A stretch of DNA of 64,000 nucleotides from Melieria omissa (lineage: Eukaryota > Arthropoda > Insecta > Diptera > Ulidiidae): NCBI GenBank assembly GCA_963971225.1, contig OZ020268.1, positions 10,799,032-10,863,031 of the forward strand. Reading direction: 5' to 3'. Shown here in pieces: positions 25,794 to 63,820 of this stretch. The notes below the pieces were generated by a model, which was not told the origin of the DNA, made no database searches, and saw only the letters and a program-made list of their open reading frames with translations. Each line of letters starts with the position of its first letter. The stretch's first letter is position 1. A program made the position numbers and the translations under genes.

Positions 25794-27727
25794 TTAGGCT
25801 GCTGCCGACGCCTTATTTTCCGCCTGCGCGGTTTTCAACACCCGCAGCCGCGAGTAAATGATGTCCCAGTCGAGGTAGGCGCCGACAACGTAGCGCACAT
25901 TCTGCTCGGTGTCATCGTACCCGGTGCGGCCGTGCAGCAGACGAATGTTATTGAAAGTCAAAACGTCGCCGGGTTTCGTTTTAAATGCAAAGGCGTCGCG
26001 ACGCGCCAAACGCACAAACTTGGCGTAGGCCTCGTACCAGGGCAGCACTGCCTCCAGCGGCACCGAGAAGTGGCTGTCGCGCTGGGGAATGCTGTGATTT
26101 ATGCGCGTGTAATTTCCGTCACTGTCTAAGCTGCAAGTGCAAAAGAGAAACTGAGTTGAGTAGGGGACAGTGAGAGAGAGAGAAAATGGTTGCAAATTGG
26201 GGTACAAGAACCATTGCGAGGGGGCCGACGGTCGCGAGTGTTTAGCAGCACAGGAAGTAGTGAGTGGAAAAAATGCAATCCGCAAGTTGTAAATGAAGCG
26301 CCAAAGCGACAAGTAACAACAACTACAACAACAACAACTTCAGGCCAACCGGCTATAAATAAAGTTGCAAATCGATTTTTGCTGCAATCAGAGCGCGCGA
26401 CGCATGTAAATACACAACGGACGGACAACAACGACGCCGGTGGCAAAACGAAGAAAGGATTTCAGTGTTTTTCTGTGGTGTGGCTTGTGCAACAACTTAA
26501 AGTTTGCCTATGGGGAATTGGCGGTGTCAAGTTGGGTCGATTGCTAAACACATTAAACGACACGCACAATGATTTACAGTTAACTTGGCCTTTGGTGCCC
26601 TGCCCACTTTGGGTACGAAATAGACGAAAACCTACCAAATCACAGGCGCACGCCAAATGTTGTGAAAATTCCGGCCGTCCTCGCTGCCGATGTCATTCCA
26701 ATCGACCAGTGTGTGCGTTAAGATTTCGTAGTCGTGGGGATGCTCGGCGCGCATCCGGTCCGCAATGTGGAAGGCGTCGACGAGCAGATTGCTGCCGCCG
26801 CGCGACTTGGTCTGCACCAGGCAGTGCAGAATGTTGGCGCTCGGCTTGTACTCGTAGTAGGGCAGGTCGGTGTGCAGCGGCAGCGGATCGGAGAGGTAGG
26901 CGTAGTTCTTGGCGCCCGGCTTGGCCTGCACAATGAACTCCTCGCTGTTGGCAATGAACTCGATTATAATTCGAACACAAGCAGATGAGAAAATATGTTT
27001 GTTCACCCGTAAGTTGTGCGCCGTATGAAGCCCACACGGTCGGCTAGTTGGCGCGCTACGGTTTTCTCGATGGGCGAGTCCTCAATGATGGCCACACCGC
27101 GCACGGCCAATGCCTCGAGCCACAGGCGCAGTGCTGGTGATTGGGAAAATATATTCAAATGACTCATAACCAACTGGCATTTCCCCACTCACCATCATTG
27201 CTGCACATGACATCTTGAAACTTGAATTTTTGCACAATTTTCTCAAAATCCGCTCCACTCCAATGCAACGATTTCGGTCTATAAAACTCATTCAAATACT
27301 TTTGTCTTCGCTGCGCGCTGAACTCGCGTTCGCGCAGCCACTGCAAGTCGTATGTGGACTCGTGCTGGTCGCTCCATTTGACTTTCAGCTGCTTCTTGGC
27401 GGCGTCTGTCTGCAAGTGTGTCAATCAATAATTGTTGCATAGAAACTATGGACCACTGACCTGCACATCGAGCGCCCTCACATCCGTATCGAAGTTGTCC
27501 CAATCGATGCGCCGCGACTTGGAGCTCTGATGGAAACACTGATCGCAGCAGCAGTTGTCGCGCAACCACAGACCTGGAAACTTCATGGGCGCTGCCTTGG
27601 GACGTTGCTGCTCTTGGACGACCACATATTTGCCGGACTCCACTGTGGCAATGAGGTGTCGGCTGAACGATTGTTGGACAACCGTGTGGCTGGAACGCAA
27701 CAGTGCGCGAACAGAGGCAGCAAACAT
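25794..27727 (-). CDS. Gamma-butyrobetaine dioxygenase (BBOX1-like), 5 exons
   Basis: Predicted role: 2-oxoglutarate- and iron-dependent hydroxylation of gamma-butyrobetaine to L-carnitine, the last step of carnitine synthesis. Exons by GT/AG junctions: 27727-27461, 27409-27193, 27133-27007, 26944-26636, 26130-25794. Phases are consistent and total 418 codons (human BBOX1 387). The start has ACAAAATG context. Residues 59-64 (C-C-C-D-Q-C) with His105 match the N-terminal zinc site of the family; LHTDLPYY gives iron ligands His228 and Asp230, and LLHGRTGY gives His373. Arg386 before GAYLDWD fits the 2-oxoglutarate site. HTDLPYY rather than HTDTTYF favours BBOX over trimethyllysine dioxygenase. 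A basic N-terminus (MFAASVRALLRSS) might target mitochondria. Introns are 51, 59, 62 and 505 bp. No frame damage is seen. Confidence 0.93.
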
Positions 27728-28100
27728 TTTGTCACGCAACTTTAACTCGTCGATTGTGCTTATCCGGGAGCAGCCAGAGCAACGCACCGGTTGGACGGCT
27801 TTGTGTGACTGATACGCGGCGCCGCGGCCAGTGGCGAACGTGCGTGCGTGTAGTCAAGTGAGTAAATATTCATGTCAAGTTTTAGCTCGCTAACTGGTTC
27901 GTGTGTTGTGTTATCAACTCGCAGTGTGCTCGGCCGCCGCGGTTGTTGTGGAGCGTAGAGCGCAGAGCGTGGACTTTGATGCGAGCGTCAAAACAAGAAC
28001 AGCTGAAACGTGTTTATAGCTGCTAGCTGCATTATCAGCTTGCGATGCGAGAAATAAGCGGTGCAGCGTGCGGTGTGTTCACCGAGCAAATGAGCGAAAG
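27728..28100 (-). promoter_or_regulatory. Upstream/5' UTR region of the BBOX-like gene
   Basis: GC-richer sequence directly upstream of the start codon, with several CG-containing blocks (about 27810-27960). No TATA box at a convincing distance is seen, so the transcription start cannot be placed from sequence alone. Confidence 0.35.
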
Positions 28101-38571: not shown

Positions 38572-40195
38572 TCAATGAGTACCTAAGTGTGAATAAGTGG
38601 GTGAAATAGAGAGTAGCGAATAAGTTAGTGAGTGAATGAGCGACTGAGTAATGAATAAGTGGGTGAGTGACTGAGTGATGGAGTGAATATATGAGTGAGT
38701 GAGTAAGTAAGTGAGTGAGTGAGTAGTTAATAAGTGAGTAAGTGAATGAGCGACTGAGAAGAAAATAGGAGTAAGTGAATAAGTAAGTGAGTACAATTTA
38801 AATTCAATAATGAAGTGAGTGAGTGAGTAGTGAATAAATTAATGAGTGAGTGAACGACTGAGCAGTGAGTGACTAAGTGCGTGAGTGAATAAGTGAGTTA
38901 CTGAGTGAATGAACAGAAAGTGACTTTTAGCCAACTTATTTAGTATTTATTTAGTGAGCGAGTGAATGTGCGACTAGTTTTTGTTGGTTTGTTGAGTAAG
39001 TGTATGAGTGACTGAAATGGAGTTTAGTGAGTGAATTGAATGAAGCGACAAGTTAGTTGTTAGTTAATTGAGTGAGTAAGTAAGTGACTCAAATGCAGTT
39101 TGAACCGACTAGTTGGTTGTTGGTTGGTTGAGTGCGTGAGTGAGTAAGTAGCTAAAAATAAGTTTGATGAGTAAATGGACTAAAGCGACTAGTTGGTTGG
39201 TTGAGTGAGTGAGTAAGTGACTGAAATGAAGTTTCATGAGTGAATGGAATGAAGCGATTAGTTGCTTGTTGGTTGGTTTAGTGAGTGACTGAGTGAGTGA
39301 CTGAGTGAGTGACTCAAATAGAGTTTAGTGAGTGAATTGAATAAAGCGAATAATTGGTTGTTGGTTGGTTGAGTGAGTGTGTGAGTGAGCGAGTTAGTGA
39401 CTGAAATGGAGTTTAGTGAGTGAATTGAATGAAGCGACTAGTTGGTTGTTAGTTAAGTGAGTGAGTGATTGAGTGAGTAAGTGACTAAAACGAAGTTTAG
39501 TGAGTAAATGGAATGAAGCAACTAGTTACTTGTTGGTTGGTTGAGTGATTGAGTGAGTGAGTGAAATTGATTTTTTTGTTGGTTAAGTGAAATGACTGAA
39601 GTGACTGAAATGAAGTTTGATTAGTGAATGCAATGAAGCTACTAGTTGTTTGTTAGTTAAGTGAGTGAGTGAGTGAGTGAGTAAGTGACTAAAAAGAAGT
39701 TTAGTGAGTAAATGGAATGAAGCAACCAGTTACTTGTTGGTTGGTTGAGTGATTGAGTGAGTGAGTGAAAATGAGTTCAGTGAGTGAATGGAATGAAGTG
39801 ATTAGTTGCTTGTTGACTGGCTTAGTGAGTGACTGAGTAAATGAGTGAGTGAGTGGAATGAAGCAACTAGTTACTTGTTGGTTGGTTGAGTGATTGAGTG
39901 AGTGAAATGGAGTTTGGTGAGTTAATGGAATGACGCGATTAGTTGCTTGTTGGTTGGTTTAGTGAGTGACTGAGTGAGTGAGTGAGTGAGTGACTGAAAA
40001 GGAGTTTAGTGAGTAAATTGAATGAAGCGACTAGTTACTGGTTGGTTAAGTGATTGAGTGAGTGAGTAAAATGGGGTTTAGTGAGTCAATGGAATAAAGC
40101 GACTAGTTGCTTGTTAGTTGAGCGAGTGAGTGAGTGAGTGAGTAAGGGAATGACATGGAGTGTAATGAGAGAATGCAAAAAAGCCACAAGTTGGT
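38572..40195. repeat. 1.6-kb GAGT-rich satellite with higher-order units
   Basis: GTGAGTGA-type tetranucleotide sequence. From about 39000 on it carries a longer unit of roughly 70-90 bp containing GAATGGAATGAAGCGACTAG, TTGCTTGTTGGTTGGTTGAG and GTGACTGAAATGGAGTTTAG. The AAGCGACTAGTTG landmark recurs about 13 times (for example 39175, 39432, 40097). The minus strand stays open as a Thr/Ser/Leu repeat only by composition. Confidence 0.9.
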
Positions 40196-59144: not shown

Positions 59145-59149
59145 CACCG
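59145..59149. other. Left target-site duplication of the Transib element (CACCG)
   Basis: CACCG immediately before the left terminus, identical to 62866-62870. Five-base, GC-rich duplications are characteristic of Transib insertion. Confidence 0.9.
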
Positions 59150-59188
59150 CACAGTGGCTGATTCTGCCGGCGTAGGTTGCAAAAGTCG
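59150..59188 (+). repeat. Transib left terminus (heptamer-spacer-A-rich block)
   Basis: Heptamer CACAGTG (59150-59156), then GCT, 14 variable bases, AGGTTG and CAAAAGTCG. If GCAAAAGTC is read as the nonamer-like block the spacer is 22 bp; it matches the RAG nonamer ACAAAAACC at 6 of 9 positions. The functional reading as a signal is inference. Confidence 0.85.
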
Positions 59189-60255
59189 ATTTTGTCATGT
59201 TCGATTTGGGGGAAACTGTTATACTTGTCCGATAGATAAATGTTTGGACTTAAGAAATCCGAAAACCTTAACTAAATTGGACAAATAGTTTTGCTTGTAG
59301 AGCCCGTCAAAGTTGAGCAATTTTTAGAGTGTGAAATAATATCAGCAATTTGCACTTTTTCGGCAAAGCTGAAGTTTTAAAATACGGAAAGGAGCAAATT
59401 AATTGAAACTTTTTGCACCGGCATCGTAAAAGAAGGCATTTGTAGTAAATAATTAAATATAGAAAAAAAAAGTTGGTTGTTGTTGTTGTCTTTTCATAGC
59501 CACTCACTTGAAGCACTGTTTTTATCACACTTTTTGAACTTTCGATAGAGTTTAAAAAAAAGGCCATAAGTGCCACGGTTCCGTCTTTGGGAAAATTGTT
59601 CACTAGTCTTCTGTGAGTACTGCCCTGAAGAGATCGGGTGCCCGATTTTGCCCGACTGGATTTTACAGCGATTTTTCTGTGGCCACCTCGCGCAATTTTG
59701 TGCTTTCGGGTGCGTGCGTTCGAACAAGTTCGTCAAGATTTTGATAGTGAATCAATTACACGCGATTATAATCGTTGCCAGGGCATGCAAATTTGGATTT
59801 TGGCTTCATTTAAGATGTGATACAAGCTTGCAACTCCATATTGAGTCGACTTTTTTTTTGGCGTATATTGCTGTAAGCTCGAAGTAAAGAGTACTTTTGC
59901 TGGATGCGCAGTTCGCATGTACGAAAAACAAGTTGGCTTTCATCTCCGGCAATCAGCTGTCATGTATCCTTTGATGTAATGCTTTTGTTTTTAACAAAAT
60001 ACTAACACTGTGTCTGTCATAACATTTTTTTTTTTAATTTGAGCAAAACTCAGTCAGTCGCCAGTAGTATTTTAGTTGAACCGCGCCAATGAAACAATTA
60101 GTTATTGAAAACAAAAAGCAGACTTATATCTATGTGCACTGTCTAAAACCCACCCCCAAAAATCCCACAACGCGGGAAAACCTAACAACTGTTTAGGTAC
60201 CTGCTAGTACTAGAAGCTTAGTACCTGCTATTTGAATGCATATGCAAATCCTACT

Positions 60256-60290
60256 TATAAATAAAGGAGTTTGGAGTAAGTGAAGTTAGT
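60256..60290 (+). promoter_or_regulatory. Candidate TATA/initiator promoter of the transposase
   Basis: TATAAATA-type sequence (60256-60263, reading TATAAATA) followed about 31 bp from its start by TTAGTTT, one mismatch from the fly initiator TCAKTY. The first ATG of the transposase frame follows about 75 bp later at 60362 with ACAAAGATG context. No transcript evidence is available. Confidence 0.45.
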
Positions 60291-60361
60291 TTCGAATTTA
60301 ATTTGAACTAGACAAGACTTCAACTCCGCCACTGCAACTAAACCGAAGAAGAAGCACAAAG

Positions 60362-62333
60362 ATGTTCTTAAAAAATTCGAAGCTGTTTGAAATATTTACT
60401 ATTTCGAGGACAAGGGAGAAGTTCGTTCTGGCTGTCACTGAAGAAATTGGTTACGTCGAAGGAAGTTTGCCTGCAGCCAACATATCTACGACTAAAAAGA
60501 AGATATCCAGGACTTATCGCACTATCAAGTTGAAATGGATTGCGGCAAACCGTACCAAATTAAATTTTGTCCAGAATAATGAGGTATGGTTGGAAAAAAC
60601 AACTTACTTCGATGCAGGAGATGCATGTAGCATAAGCGATGACCAACCATCGACATCAAAGGCGGCAATAGGAAGGCCGAAAAAGTCAATTCAGGACTGT
60701 GCGTCATTCACTAAAAAAAAGGAAGCTTATGGAGGCAACGGGAAAAATAACTACCACCCACCTGTCAGAAGCTTTGACTATGAAATATAATAAGGATCAG
60801 GAGAAAATGAAAGGCATTATAGTGAATGCAGTTTCACTAGCAAGCCCGAATCGAGTTCAAAGAATAAAGGACAGTATTCCCACCCCACCCAATGTGGTGC
60901 CAACCAAATATAGTCATAATGAAGCTTTAGCATTGTTTTTGGACTTAGGATTGTCCAAGGAAAACTATTTAATTTTGAGAAGTTCCTTGCAAAAACATAA
61001 TGCAGATGTTCTACCAGCATATCACAACATTACGTCAGCAAAAAAAGAGGCCGTTCCTTATAACTGCGAAATTACCGAAGTGTCAGCTCAAGTCGAACTG
61101 CAAAGCCTCATGGACCATACTGCGAAACGAATTTTGAGCAGCAAAAGTGAACAGGAGCTTAATGCGCTTTCAAAGAATCTAACCTTACTAAGTAAGTGGG
61201 GTTGCGATGGATCCTCTGGTCAAAGTACATATAAGCAAGCGATAAAAACAGCTGATGGCGAAAATATTACGGATTCTAATATGTTCATGGCATCCGTTGT
61301 TCCACTAAGGTTAAAGAGCGAACTTGCAGAACATTGGGGGAATCCTAGCCCTTCATCAGTACATTTCTGCCGACCAATACTATTTCAATATGCAAAGGAA
61401 ACTTCAGATCTCATTAGATCGACAGTTAGTAGCATACGAGATCAAATTGCTGCAATTGGGCGATTCAGCATACATTTTACTTGACGATGGTTGACGGAAA
61501 AGTTTTAAATGAAATAACAAACACGAAATCAACGCAGTGGTGTCCCATATGCAAGAGAGCGCAAAAAAATTTCCAATCACTAGATGAATCCATAACTGAT
61601 GAACATAATTATGAATATGGACTGTCGCCATTACATGCTAGAATCAAAACTATGGAGTTTATTTTGAAGCTAGCATATACACTCCCCCATAGTAATGAAA
61701 CCACTCTAACAAAGGAGATAATAGCAGCTAGAAAGAAGAGGATACAAGATGCTTTCTACAATGAGATGGGGTTAAGACTGGACCAGCCAAAACAAGGTTA
61801 TGGTAGTAGTAATGATGGAAACACATCTAGGACATTTTTTGACAAAGACGAAACAACAGCTAGGTTAACTGGAGTCGACCACGAAATAATTAAGAGACTT
61901 CAAGTTCTGCTTAATGTTTTATGCTGTAGAGAAAATGTAAATGCTGACAAATTTGGAGAATATGCTTTAACGACTACCAACTTATTACAGCAAAAGTATC
62001 CTTGGAAAAAATTAACACCCACTGTGCATAAAATATTAGCTCACGGCAAAAGTGTAATAGAGTACCAGCCATTGCCCATTGGAGAGCTGTCAGAAGAAGC
62101 CCAAGAGTCCAAATAAGGAATATAAAAAGTTTAGGTACATGAATACCTGCAAGACTACGCGTCTGCGTCAAAATGAGGATTTATTTAATATGCTTTTAGC
62201 TTCATCAGACCCACTAATTTCATCTTTAAGATATGTTAAGCGAAGAAAAGAATTACAAAAATATTACTCTCCAGAGATGTTTAGTTTATTCGATACAAGC
62301 CCAAGTACTGACTATTATTTTGAAAACAATTAA
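60362..62333 (+). pseudogene. Transib/RAG1-like transposase, three frame breaks
   Basis: Cut-and-paste transposase of the RAG1-core family, about 657 codons across four frame segments. Segment 1 (60362 to the A8 run at 60713-60720) has the basic GRPKKS linker. Segment 2 (to ~61478) has WGCDGSSGQS, first catalytic Asp at 61206-61208. Segment 3 (from ~61478 to 62113) has LTMVDGK, second Asp at 61493-61495. It also carries the zinc-type pair CPIC, GLSPLHARIK and HKILAH (like the RAG1 His pair). SEEAQE holds the probable third acidic residue, Glu at 62105-62107. Segment 4 (to stop 62331-62333) has NKEYKKFR and SSDPLISS. Apart from the three shifts no in-frame stop is seen. Each shift lies at or near a short A or T run, so base-calling error is an alternative to real decay. 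Confidence 0.9.
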
Positions 62334-62826
62334 ATTTCATATTATTTAATAAGAGGAAAATATCATCATAACTCAGATATAAGTATTTTTGTTAATAATA
62401 TAATACTAGTGCTGATTTCACTACTAGAACTACTATTACTAAAACTATTACTATTAAAATAATTTACAATAAATAAACACAAGGTGAAAGGTAATTTCAA
62501 GGTAAGTTTACGTAAATTTCCCGAATTCTGGTTCTAATTTTGAAAGCGAAATTTATTAATTTGTATCTTTAAATTTGACTCTTTCAGCTTATTTCTTAAA
62601 TTTCTTATTACTTTTCATCTTTTTTAATGCATTTTCATTAATTTTGCAACTAAAACTTATCATTGTAGCTCGCATTATTCTTATTTACAATAAGCCGAAC
62701 TTTGACAAAGTATTACGTAGCACCCTGTAACTCGATCTAGTTCAGTTTTGAAAATACAATAGCCTGATGAATTTCTAATCAACAGCAAAAAAAATTTTCC
62801 AATTATCTCTATTCGTTCAGGAGTTA

Positions 62827-62865
62827 TTAATTTTGCAACCTGAAATGACAAATTGAGCCACTGTG
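62827..62865 (-). repeat. Transib right terminus (inverted)
   Basis: On the minus strand: CACAGTG, GCT, 14 variable bases, AGGTTG and CAAAATTAA, the same geometry as the left end. It is followed by the CACCG duplication at 62866-62870. Confidence 0.85.
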
Positions 62866-62870
62866 CACCG
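62866..62870. other. Right target-site duplication of the Transib element (CACCG)
   Basis: Exact repeat of 59145-59149. Confidence 0.9.
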
Positions 62871-63111
62871 TTGCAGCGTCAGACTTTGGCTTCCGGTGAT
62901 CGTAAGCGTGTTTAATAGTTTCAGCTTTGCTGTTGCTTTTTCACGTTTGCATTTGTACATAGTTAGCAAAGTTTTTGTTGTTGTTAAAATTTGTTTTTGT
63001 ATGTATTGCCAACACAGCAAAATTACAATGCCAACACAATCACTGTGAGGGATTTACTTTTGTTAGTAGCAAATAGTTTATTTTTAATTAACATTTTTTT
63101 ATTTCTGATTC

Positions 63112-63820
63112 ATTGATTGAATAAGTTAAACTAAATAAAATTTATAATAAAAAGAAATAAGAAAATTGATTGAAAAAGTCAGTAATGAAATAGTTATTAA
63201 TTGATTTTTAGTTAGTTGGATGAAAAAAAATAAAAATTAGAAAAATCTGATTAATTGATTGAATAAGTAAAACTAAATATAATTAATAATAAAAAGAAAA
63301 AAAAATTGATTGAAATAGTTAATAATGAAATAGTTATTAATTGATTTTGAGTTAGTTAGAAATGAAAAAAATTAAAATTAGAAAAATCTGATTAATTGAT
63401 TGAATAAGTGAAACTAAATAAAATTATTAAAAAAAAGAACAAATAAAATTGATTGAAATAGTCTGTAATGAAATAATTATTAATTAATTTTTTTGTTAGT
63501 AAGAAATGAAAAAACAAAAATTAGAAAATTCTGATTTATGGATTGAATAAGTGAAACTAAATAAAATTTATAATAAAAAGAACAAATAAAATTGATTGAA
63601 ATAGTTAATAATGAAATAGTTACTAATTGATTTTTAGTTAGTTAGAAATGGAAAACAATAAAAATTAGAAAAATCTGTTTCATTGATTGAATAAGTAAAA
63701 CTAAATATAATTAATAATAAAAAGAAAAAAAGAAAACTTATTGAAATAGTTAATAATTTAATAGTTATTAATTGATTTTCAGTTAGTTAGAAATGGAAAA
63801 AAATAAAAAAAAAAAAATAG
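63112..63820. repeat. AT-rich satellite, five ~142-bp units
   Basis: ATTGATTGAATAAGT starts near 63112, 63254, 63395, ~63538 and 63682, giving periods of 141-144 bp. Each unit also has AACTAAATAAAATT, AATGAAATAGTTATTAATTG and AGTTAGTTAGAAATG. Units are closely similar. Confidence 0.88.

Follow-up and report, generated by a model that had tools for sequence, protein, structure and literature searches.

A full-length, non-autonomous copy of a recently active Transib family in Melieria omissa

The window analysed here, a 64-kb stretch of Melieria omissa contig OZ020268.1 compared with a genome of 490 Mb in 164 contigs, contains a Transib element of 3716 bp (59150-62865) lying between two CACCG duplications. 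We read this element, with a probability of about 0.97, as full-length but non-autonomous, one member of a Transib family that was active recently and is here termed family 1. Transib transposons are an accepted relative of RAG1. The reading is carried by the ends of the element, the 5-bp duplications and target preference of its family, a sister-copy transposase of the RAG1/HzTransib type, defects that copies at different sites have in common, and sister insertions for which empty sites were identified. An earlier note on this DNA, made from the window alone, had called a full-length, bounded Transib, and the protein, the fold of the relative P0002, the termini, the duplications and the sister-copy empty sites all agree with that call. 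The limits and ends were placed as follows.

59145-59149, no strand: left target-site duplication CACCG, one transition from the family consensus CGNCG
59150-59184, forward strand: left terminal inverted repeat, the heptamer CACAGTG followed by GCT, a variable stretch and AGGTTGCAAAA
59168-59172, no strand: CGGCG, matching the target of the family itself, within the left terminal repeat, where nested insertions lie in three other copies
62831-62865, reverse strand: right terminal inverted repeat, CACAGTGGCT followed by a variable stretch and AGGTTGCAAAA
62866-62870, no strand: right target-site duplication CACCG

Read inwards, CACAGTGGCT opens either end of the element, past which the two ends match partly over about 14 positions and then fully in AGGTTGCAAAA (positions 25-35); the terminal repeat is bipartite. 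A nonamer-like block was observed 22 bp past the heptamer at the left end (GCAAAAGTC) and at the right end (GCAAAATTA). The exact CACAGTG at both termini and the perfect CACCG duplication described in the earlier note were both confirmed. Since CACAGTG occurs 14 times in the window, counting either strand, the heptamer alone is unremarkable, while the recurrence of the ends across copies is beyond chance.

Copy numbers given here are lower bounds, drawn from the 40 candidates scored out of 1061 in the family-1 search and the 65 scored out of 3254 in a protein search. The family-1 sample began with 55 matching pieces listed, from which 39 loci were fetched, holding 40 copies or part copies. The earlier note had proposed a count of genome copies sharing both ends and 5-bp duplications; the ends recur, and equal 5-bp flanks were seen directly in 30 of the 40. 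The remaining ten were L009, L010, L018, L020a, L021-L025 and L029. The first 18 bp of L009, L010 and L020a had been cut away by a nested insertion, and L010 and L020a also had equal flanks once the element nested in the left end was accounted for. A different left boundary for these three copies was rejected, as their start at position 19 is due to an element nested at CGGCG (nesting was observed directly for L010 and L020a, and L009 matches L010 exactly, flanks included). The right end was absent or not reached in L021-L025 and L029.

We narrowed the sample to 31 independent insertions by removing L027 (flanks as in L026) and L009 (as in L010) and adding L010 and L020a. All 31 had CACAGTG at both ends. 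Their duplications were CGCCG (15), CGGCG (7), CGTCG (2), CGACG (1) and six others; CGNCG was found in 25 of the 31, and the other six were each one transition away. As CGNCG starts at only 0.3% of positions in 95 kb of flanks, this proportion is far above chance. The bases on either side were also biased: A or G preceded the duplication in 29 of 31 insertions and T or C followed it in 28 of 31, giving the palindrome RCGNCGY. CGNCG has already been published as a Transib target (PMC4735498), and the Transib of Trichoplusia ni in baculovirus described there resembles family 1 in this respect. Drosophila hopper and transib2 likewise have a 5-bp duplication and a palindromic motif reaching past it, but their target is CCANTGG rather than RCGNCGY (PMC3276498). 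A literature search for Transib together with Tephritidae gave a single paper, which concerns hAT elements of Drosophila willistoni. Family 1 appears to be new, though it belongs to a known type of element. Separately, L009 (contig C72, 53 kb) and L010 (contig C4, long) were identical in element and flanks, with 900 bp compared on each side, and the pair is an uncollapsed haplotype or a duplicated assembly piece.

The family boundaries and the 5-bp duplication are fixed by empty sites of three sister insertions, which are not sites of the window insertion. The joined flanks of L017 align with a copy of the same repeat that lies uninterrupted next to L038 (97.3% over 295 bp) and has one CGCCG. 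Those of L038 align in turn with the repeat next to L017 (98.5% over 199 bp); the two comparisons mirror each other and lie within one repeat. The third insertion, L020b, interrupts the left end of a further family copy, and the sequence without interruption was observed in six other copies listed.

The intact transposase is 669 aa long, a frame kept only by L005 and L007 among the copies examined. The protein of an intact sister copy matched HzTransib with an E-value of 3e-98, mouse RAG1 with 4e-7 and BbRAGL with 0.14, and it matched Pfam RAG1 above the cut-off. In the family-1 protein alignment, D, D, E, C-x2-C and H-x4-H were in register with HzTransib (Helicoverpa zea; PDB 6pqn, 6pqx) across nearly the whole solved chain. 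The fold alignment of the relative P0002, confined mainly to model residues 180-638 and taking in little of the N-terminal part, gave 35-37% identity to HzTransib in the aligned core. Catalytic residues also aligned with vertebrate RAG1, with which P0002 is predicted to have a fold in common, but identity in the fold alignment was only 16-17% and no RAG2 was seen. A profile search of solved structures with the N-terminal region gave chance-level matches only (E 0.16 and above). HzTransib is a 3.5-kb element that also has terminal inverted repeats and a 5-bp duplication (GCTCG; PMC1852546). It differs in its duplication sequence and in its chain of 497 residues, compared with 669 aa in family 1, where about 180 residues stand ahead of the aligned core, and the high identity that would place both in the same family was not seen. 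Family 1 has a homologous transposase with D, D and E, termini beginning with CAC and resembling the heptamer of the recombination signal sequence (RSS), and a 5-bp target-site duplication, usually GC-rich in the Transib superfamily. It also has the single protein without RAG2L that marks this superfamily (PMC4411706), as seen on both strands of the window copy and in forward frames of sister copies. In the window copy the gene is broken.

60362-62333, forward strand: broken transposase gene, in four frames (60302-60790, 60672-61484, 61433-62116, 62061-62333)
61206-61208, forward strand: codon of the first catalytic D, aligned to HzTransib D126 and RAG1 D600
61493-61495, forward strand: codon of the second catalytic D, aligned to HzTransib D225 and RAG1 D708
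61541-61555, forward strand: CPICK (C-x2-C), in frame 61433-62116
62024-62044, forward strand: VHKILAH (H-x4-H), in frame 61433-62116
62105-62107, forward strand: codon of the catalytic E, aligned to HzTransib E436 and RAG1 E962

The first D lies in KWGCDGS (61194-61214) inside frame 60672-61484, while the second D, in TMVDGK (61484-61501), and the E, in SEEAQES (62090-62110), are both inside frame 61433-62116. Two of the broken frames matched the HzTransib transposase. A RAG1-core-like region with D, D, E, C-x2-C and H-x4-H had been claimed from the window, and all of these are indeed encoded, although split over two broken frames. From what is known of RAG1 and HzTransib, CPICK and VHKILAH presumably have a zinc role. 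Catalytic residue numbers of HzTransib and RAG1 were taken from PMC6941560, and we infer their placement on the chain. The window copy is dead, unable to make transposase.

Four copies (L011, L013, L014, L015) differed by 1-6 substitutions over about 3.73 kb at four different sites, and therefore moved very recently. The window copy shares a 37-bp deletion within the transposase gene with L002, L003 and L004, each with different flanks and its own duplication. Because this main defect is common to copies at other sites, the window copy was most likely mobilised in trans by the enzyme of an intact sister copy, and a defective master mobilised in trans is the simplest reading of the shared deletion. 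A second, independent non-autonomous lineage consists of L034-L037, with the same internal deletion (position 1815 to about 3358) but each with its own duplication and flanks. By analogy with the biochemistry of HzTransib and RAG, a transposase dimer would bind the bipartite ends (CACAGTG, 22 bp, GCAAAA), nick 5' of the heptamer and then cut via hairpin formation on the flank, and the element would be inserted, with a 5-bp stagger, at a CGNCG target. In this way an intact sister copy would supply the enzyme that moves the defective window copy in trans.

Several points weigh against our reading. The flanks of the two-ended copy L018 are unequal (CGGCG and CGCTG), the window duplication CACCG is one of the six in 31 that depart from CGNCG, and a Pfam search with the four window frames taken one by one found no family. 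The four most recent copies carry a common stop removing the last 54 residues, and may likewise have depended on mobilisation in trans. Spread of the 37-bp deletion among copies by gene conversion is another possibility. It is the remaining escape for the idea that the window copy moved autonomously and gained its defects after insertion, an idea favoured by some differences private to this copy. We consider this very unlikely, as the deletion is common to L002, L003 and L004 at other sites with their own duplications and is therefore probably older than the four insertions. Hardly worth entertaining is a RAG-like (RAGL/ProtoRAG-type) transposon, or a remnant of one, with convergent genes for RAG1L and RAG2L. 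The transposase is far closer to HzTransib than to RAG1 or BbRAGL, and is not nearer to RAG1/RAG1L than to Transib. Besides the transposase frames, no frame above 141 aa was found on either strand of the window copy (frames of at least 60 aa scanned), nor beside the transposase pieces of sister copies (top four forward frames per copy), and a RAG2L of the usual length was therefore not seen among these frames. A RAGL element was rejected on the window copy, which had no second long frame.

The protein search also found a second family (family 2), about 59% identical to family 1 in the transposase, for which nine near-full-length, stop-free frames were listed. One of its copies and a further element were placed as follows.

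L041:491-4212: family-2 copy with CACTATG heptamers
L040:7260-8926: 1667-bp element with ends CACTGTGG and CACAGTGG, a CGGCG duplication and no long frame

The ends of family 2, read from two copies (L041, L042), are CACTATGGCCC...GCAAAAATC, with a 22-bp spacer at both ends and a nonamer-like block of 7/9 matches. Like family 1 it has CAC and GCAAAA 22 bp apart and CGNCG-type duplications, but its heptamer is CACTATG rather than CACAGTG. CACTATG is also the heptamer of ProtoRAG (PMC8289069). The end survey covered 12 family-2 copies (L041, L042 and the ten pairs L043-L062). Both ends were obtained in seven, six of which had duplications, all CGTCG, while L051/L052 had unequal flanks; one end only was obtained for L048, L050, L054 and L061, and none for L057/L058. 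CGTCG in 6 of 7 two-ended copies compares with CGCCG or CGGCG in 22 of 31 family-1 insertions. The central base was C or G in 25 of 31 family-1 duplications versus T in 6 of 6 for family 2 (Fisher p 4e-4), and adding five unpaired or unequal family-2 ends gave A or T in 11 of 11 (p 3e-6), in a small sample drawn from the best protein matches in which duplicated flanks are possible. In this small sample the two families appear to differ in the central target base, S versus W. The 1667-bp element, nested within the left end of the family-1 copy L010, may be related to Transib, judging from its ends and target. At L040:851-2485 we also noted, by eye, a long frame resembling a Ty3/gypsy-type reverse transcriptase region.

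CACAGTG is the RSS consensus heptamer (PMC8289069), and RSS-identical heptamers have already been reported for some Transibs (PMC6941560, PMC8355894). Family 1 shares with the vertebrate RSS this heptamer and an A-rich distal block, but has a 22-bp spacer at either end in place of 12 and 23. Its nonamer-like blocks scored 6/9 at one end and 5/9 at the other, and we rejected a significant nonamer from this family alone, as 8.5% of random element windows score at least 6 (spacers 20-24). The nonamer ACAAAAACC was not found at spacers of 12 and 23, the shared blocks standing at 22 on both sides, and the best nonamer score at spacers 11-13 was 2/9. All four ends of the two families share the 22-bp spacer, and there is therefore no 12/23 asymmetry; the 22/22 spacers fit a symmetric class of 20-22 described in PMC8355894.

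We rejected the idea that the exact heptamer is a conserved bridge to the RSS, because the nearest family found carries CACTATG and identical Transib heptamers have already been reviewed. It is best regarded as an identity that varies from family to family. The sister heptamer and the weak nonamer-like match taken alone could suggest that the ends resemble the RSS by chance convergence on a 7-mer, uninformative about RAG. We think this improbable, as the transposase is homologous to RAG1 and CAC with GCAAAA at a 22-bp spacer recurs at the four ends of the two families. Because of this recurrence, we regard the bipartite RSS-like layout as conserved, unlike the final four bases of the heptamer.

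In the left terminal repeat, CGGCG occupies positions 19-23, and three nested insertions were observed exactly there: one of family 1 (L020), one of the 1667-bp element (L010) and one of family 2 (L041, whose site is CGACG). L020:1001-8193 consists of two family-1 copies head to head, one within the CGGCG of the other's left repeat. All three nested insertions part the heptamer from the nonamer-like block. We suggest, only tentatively, a joint reading in which a still-moving RAG1-type family with RSS-identical heptamers carries its own CGGCG target inside its left end, so that family members and sister Transibs might silence copies there as a built-in brake, and in which a sister family differing in heptamer and central base might allow the residues that govern heptamer and target choice to be mapped in a natural pair.

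Autonomous Transibs usually occur in one or few copies and are often damaged (PMC4411706). Here, two related families coexist in a single genome, both with uninterrupted transposase frames. Bounded copies number in the tens, movement was recent, defective copies were probably mobilised in trans and empty sites are at hand, which makes the genome a natural test bed for constraints on heptamer, spacer and target choice. The window copy had been put forward in the earlier note as useful for studying the origin of RAG. It is bounded with both ends, as claimed, but it is a dead copy whose heptamer identity was already reported and varies by family, and the whole family is of more use than this one copy. 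The finding alone does not change the picture of RAG origins.

Elsewhere in the window, exons of a gamma-butyrobetaine dioxygenase gene were observed on the reverse strand (25794-27853). The joined exons had 89-90% identity to the top proteins of Rhagoletis, Eurosta and Bactrocera, covering 70% of the query. Among the 120 of 264 matches listed, other named species had 87% or less, and the best match by E-value was from Culex (60% identity over 75%). The host is accordingly probably a tephritoid. A long tandem array, degenerate and with abundant AGTG repeats, lies at 38950-40143, and a second tandem array (143-bp unit, 4.9 copies, 63104-63809) lies directly right of the insertion.
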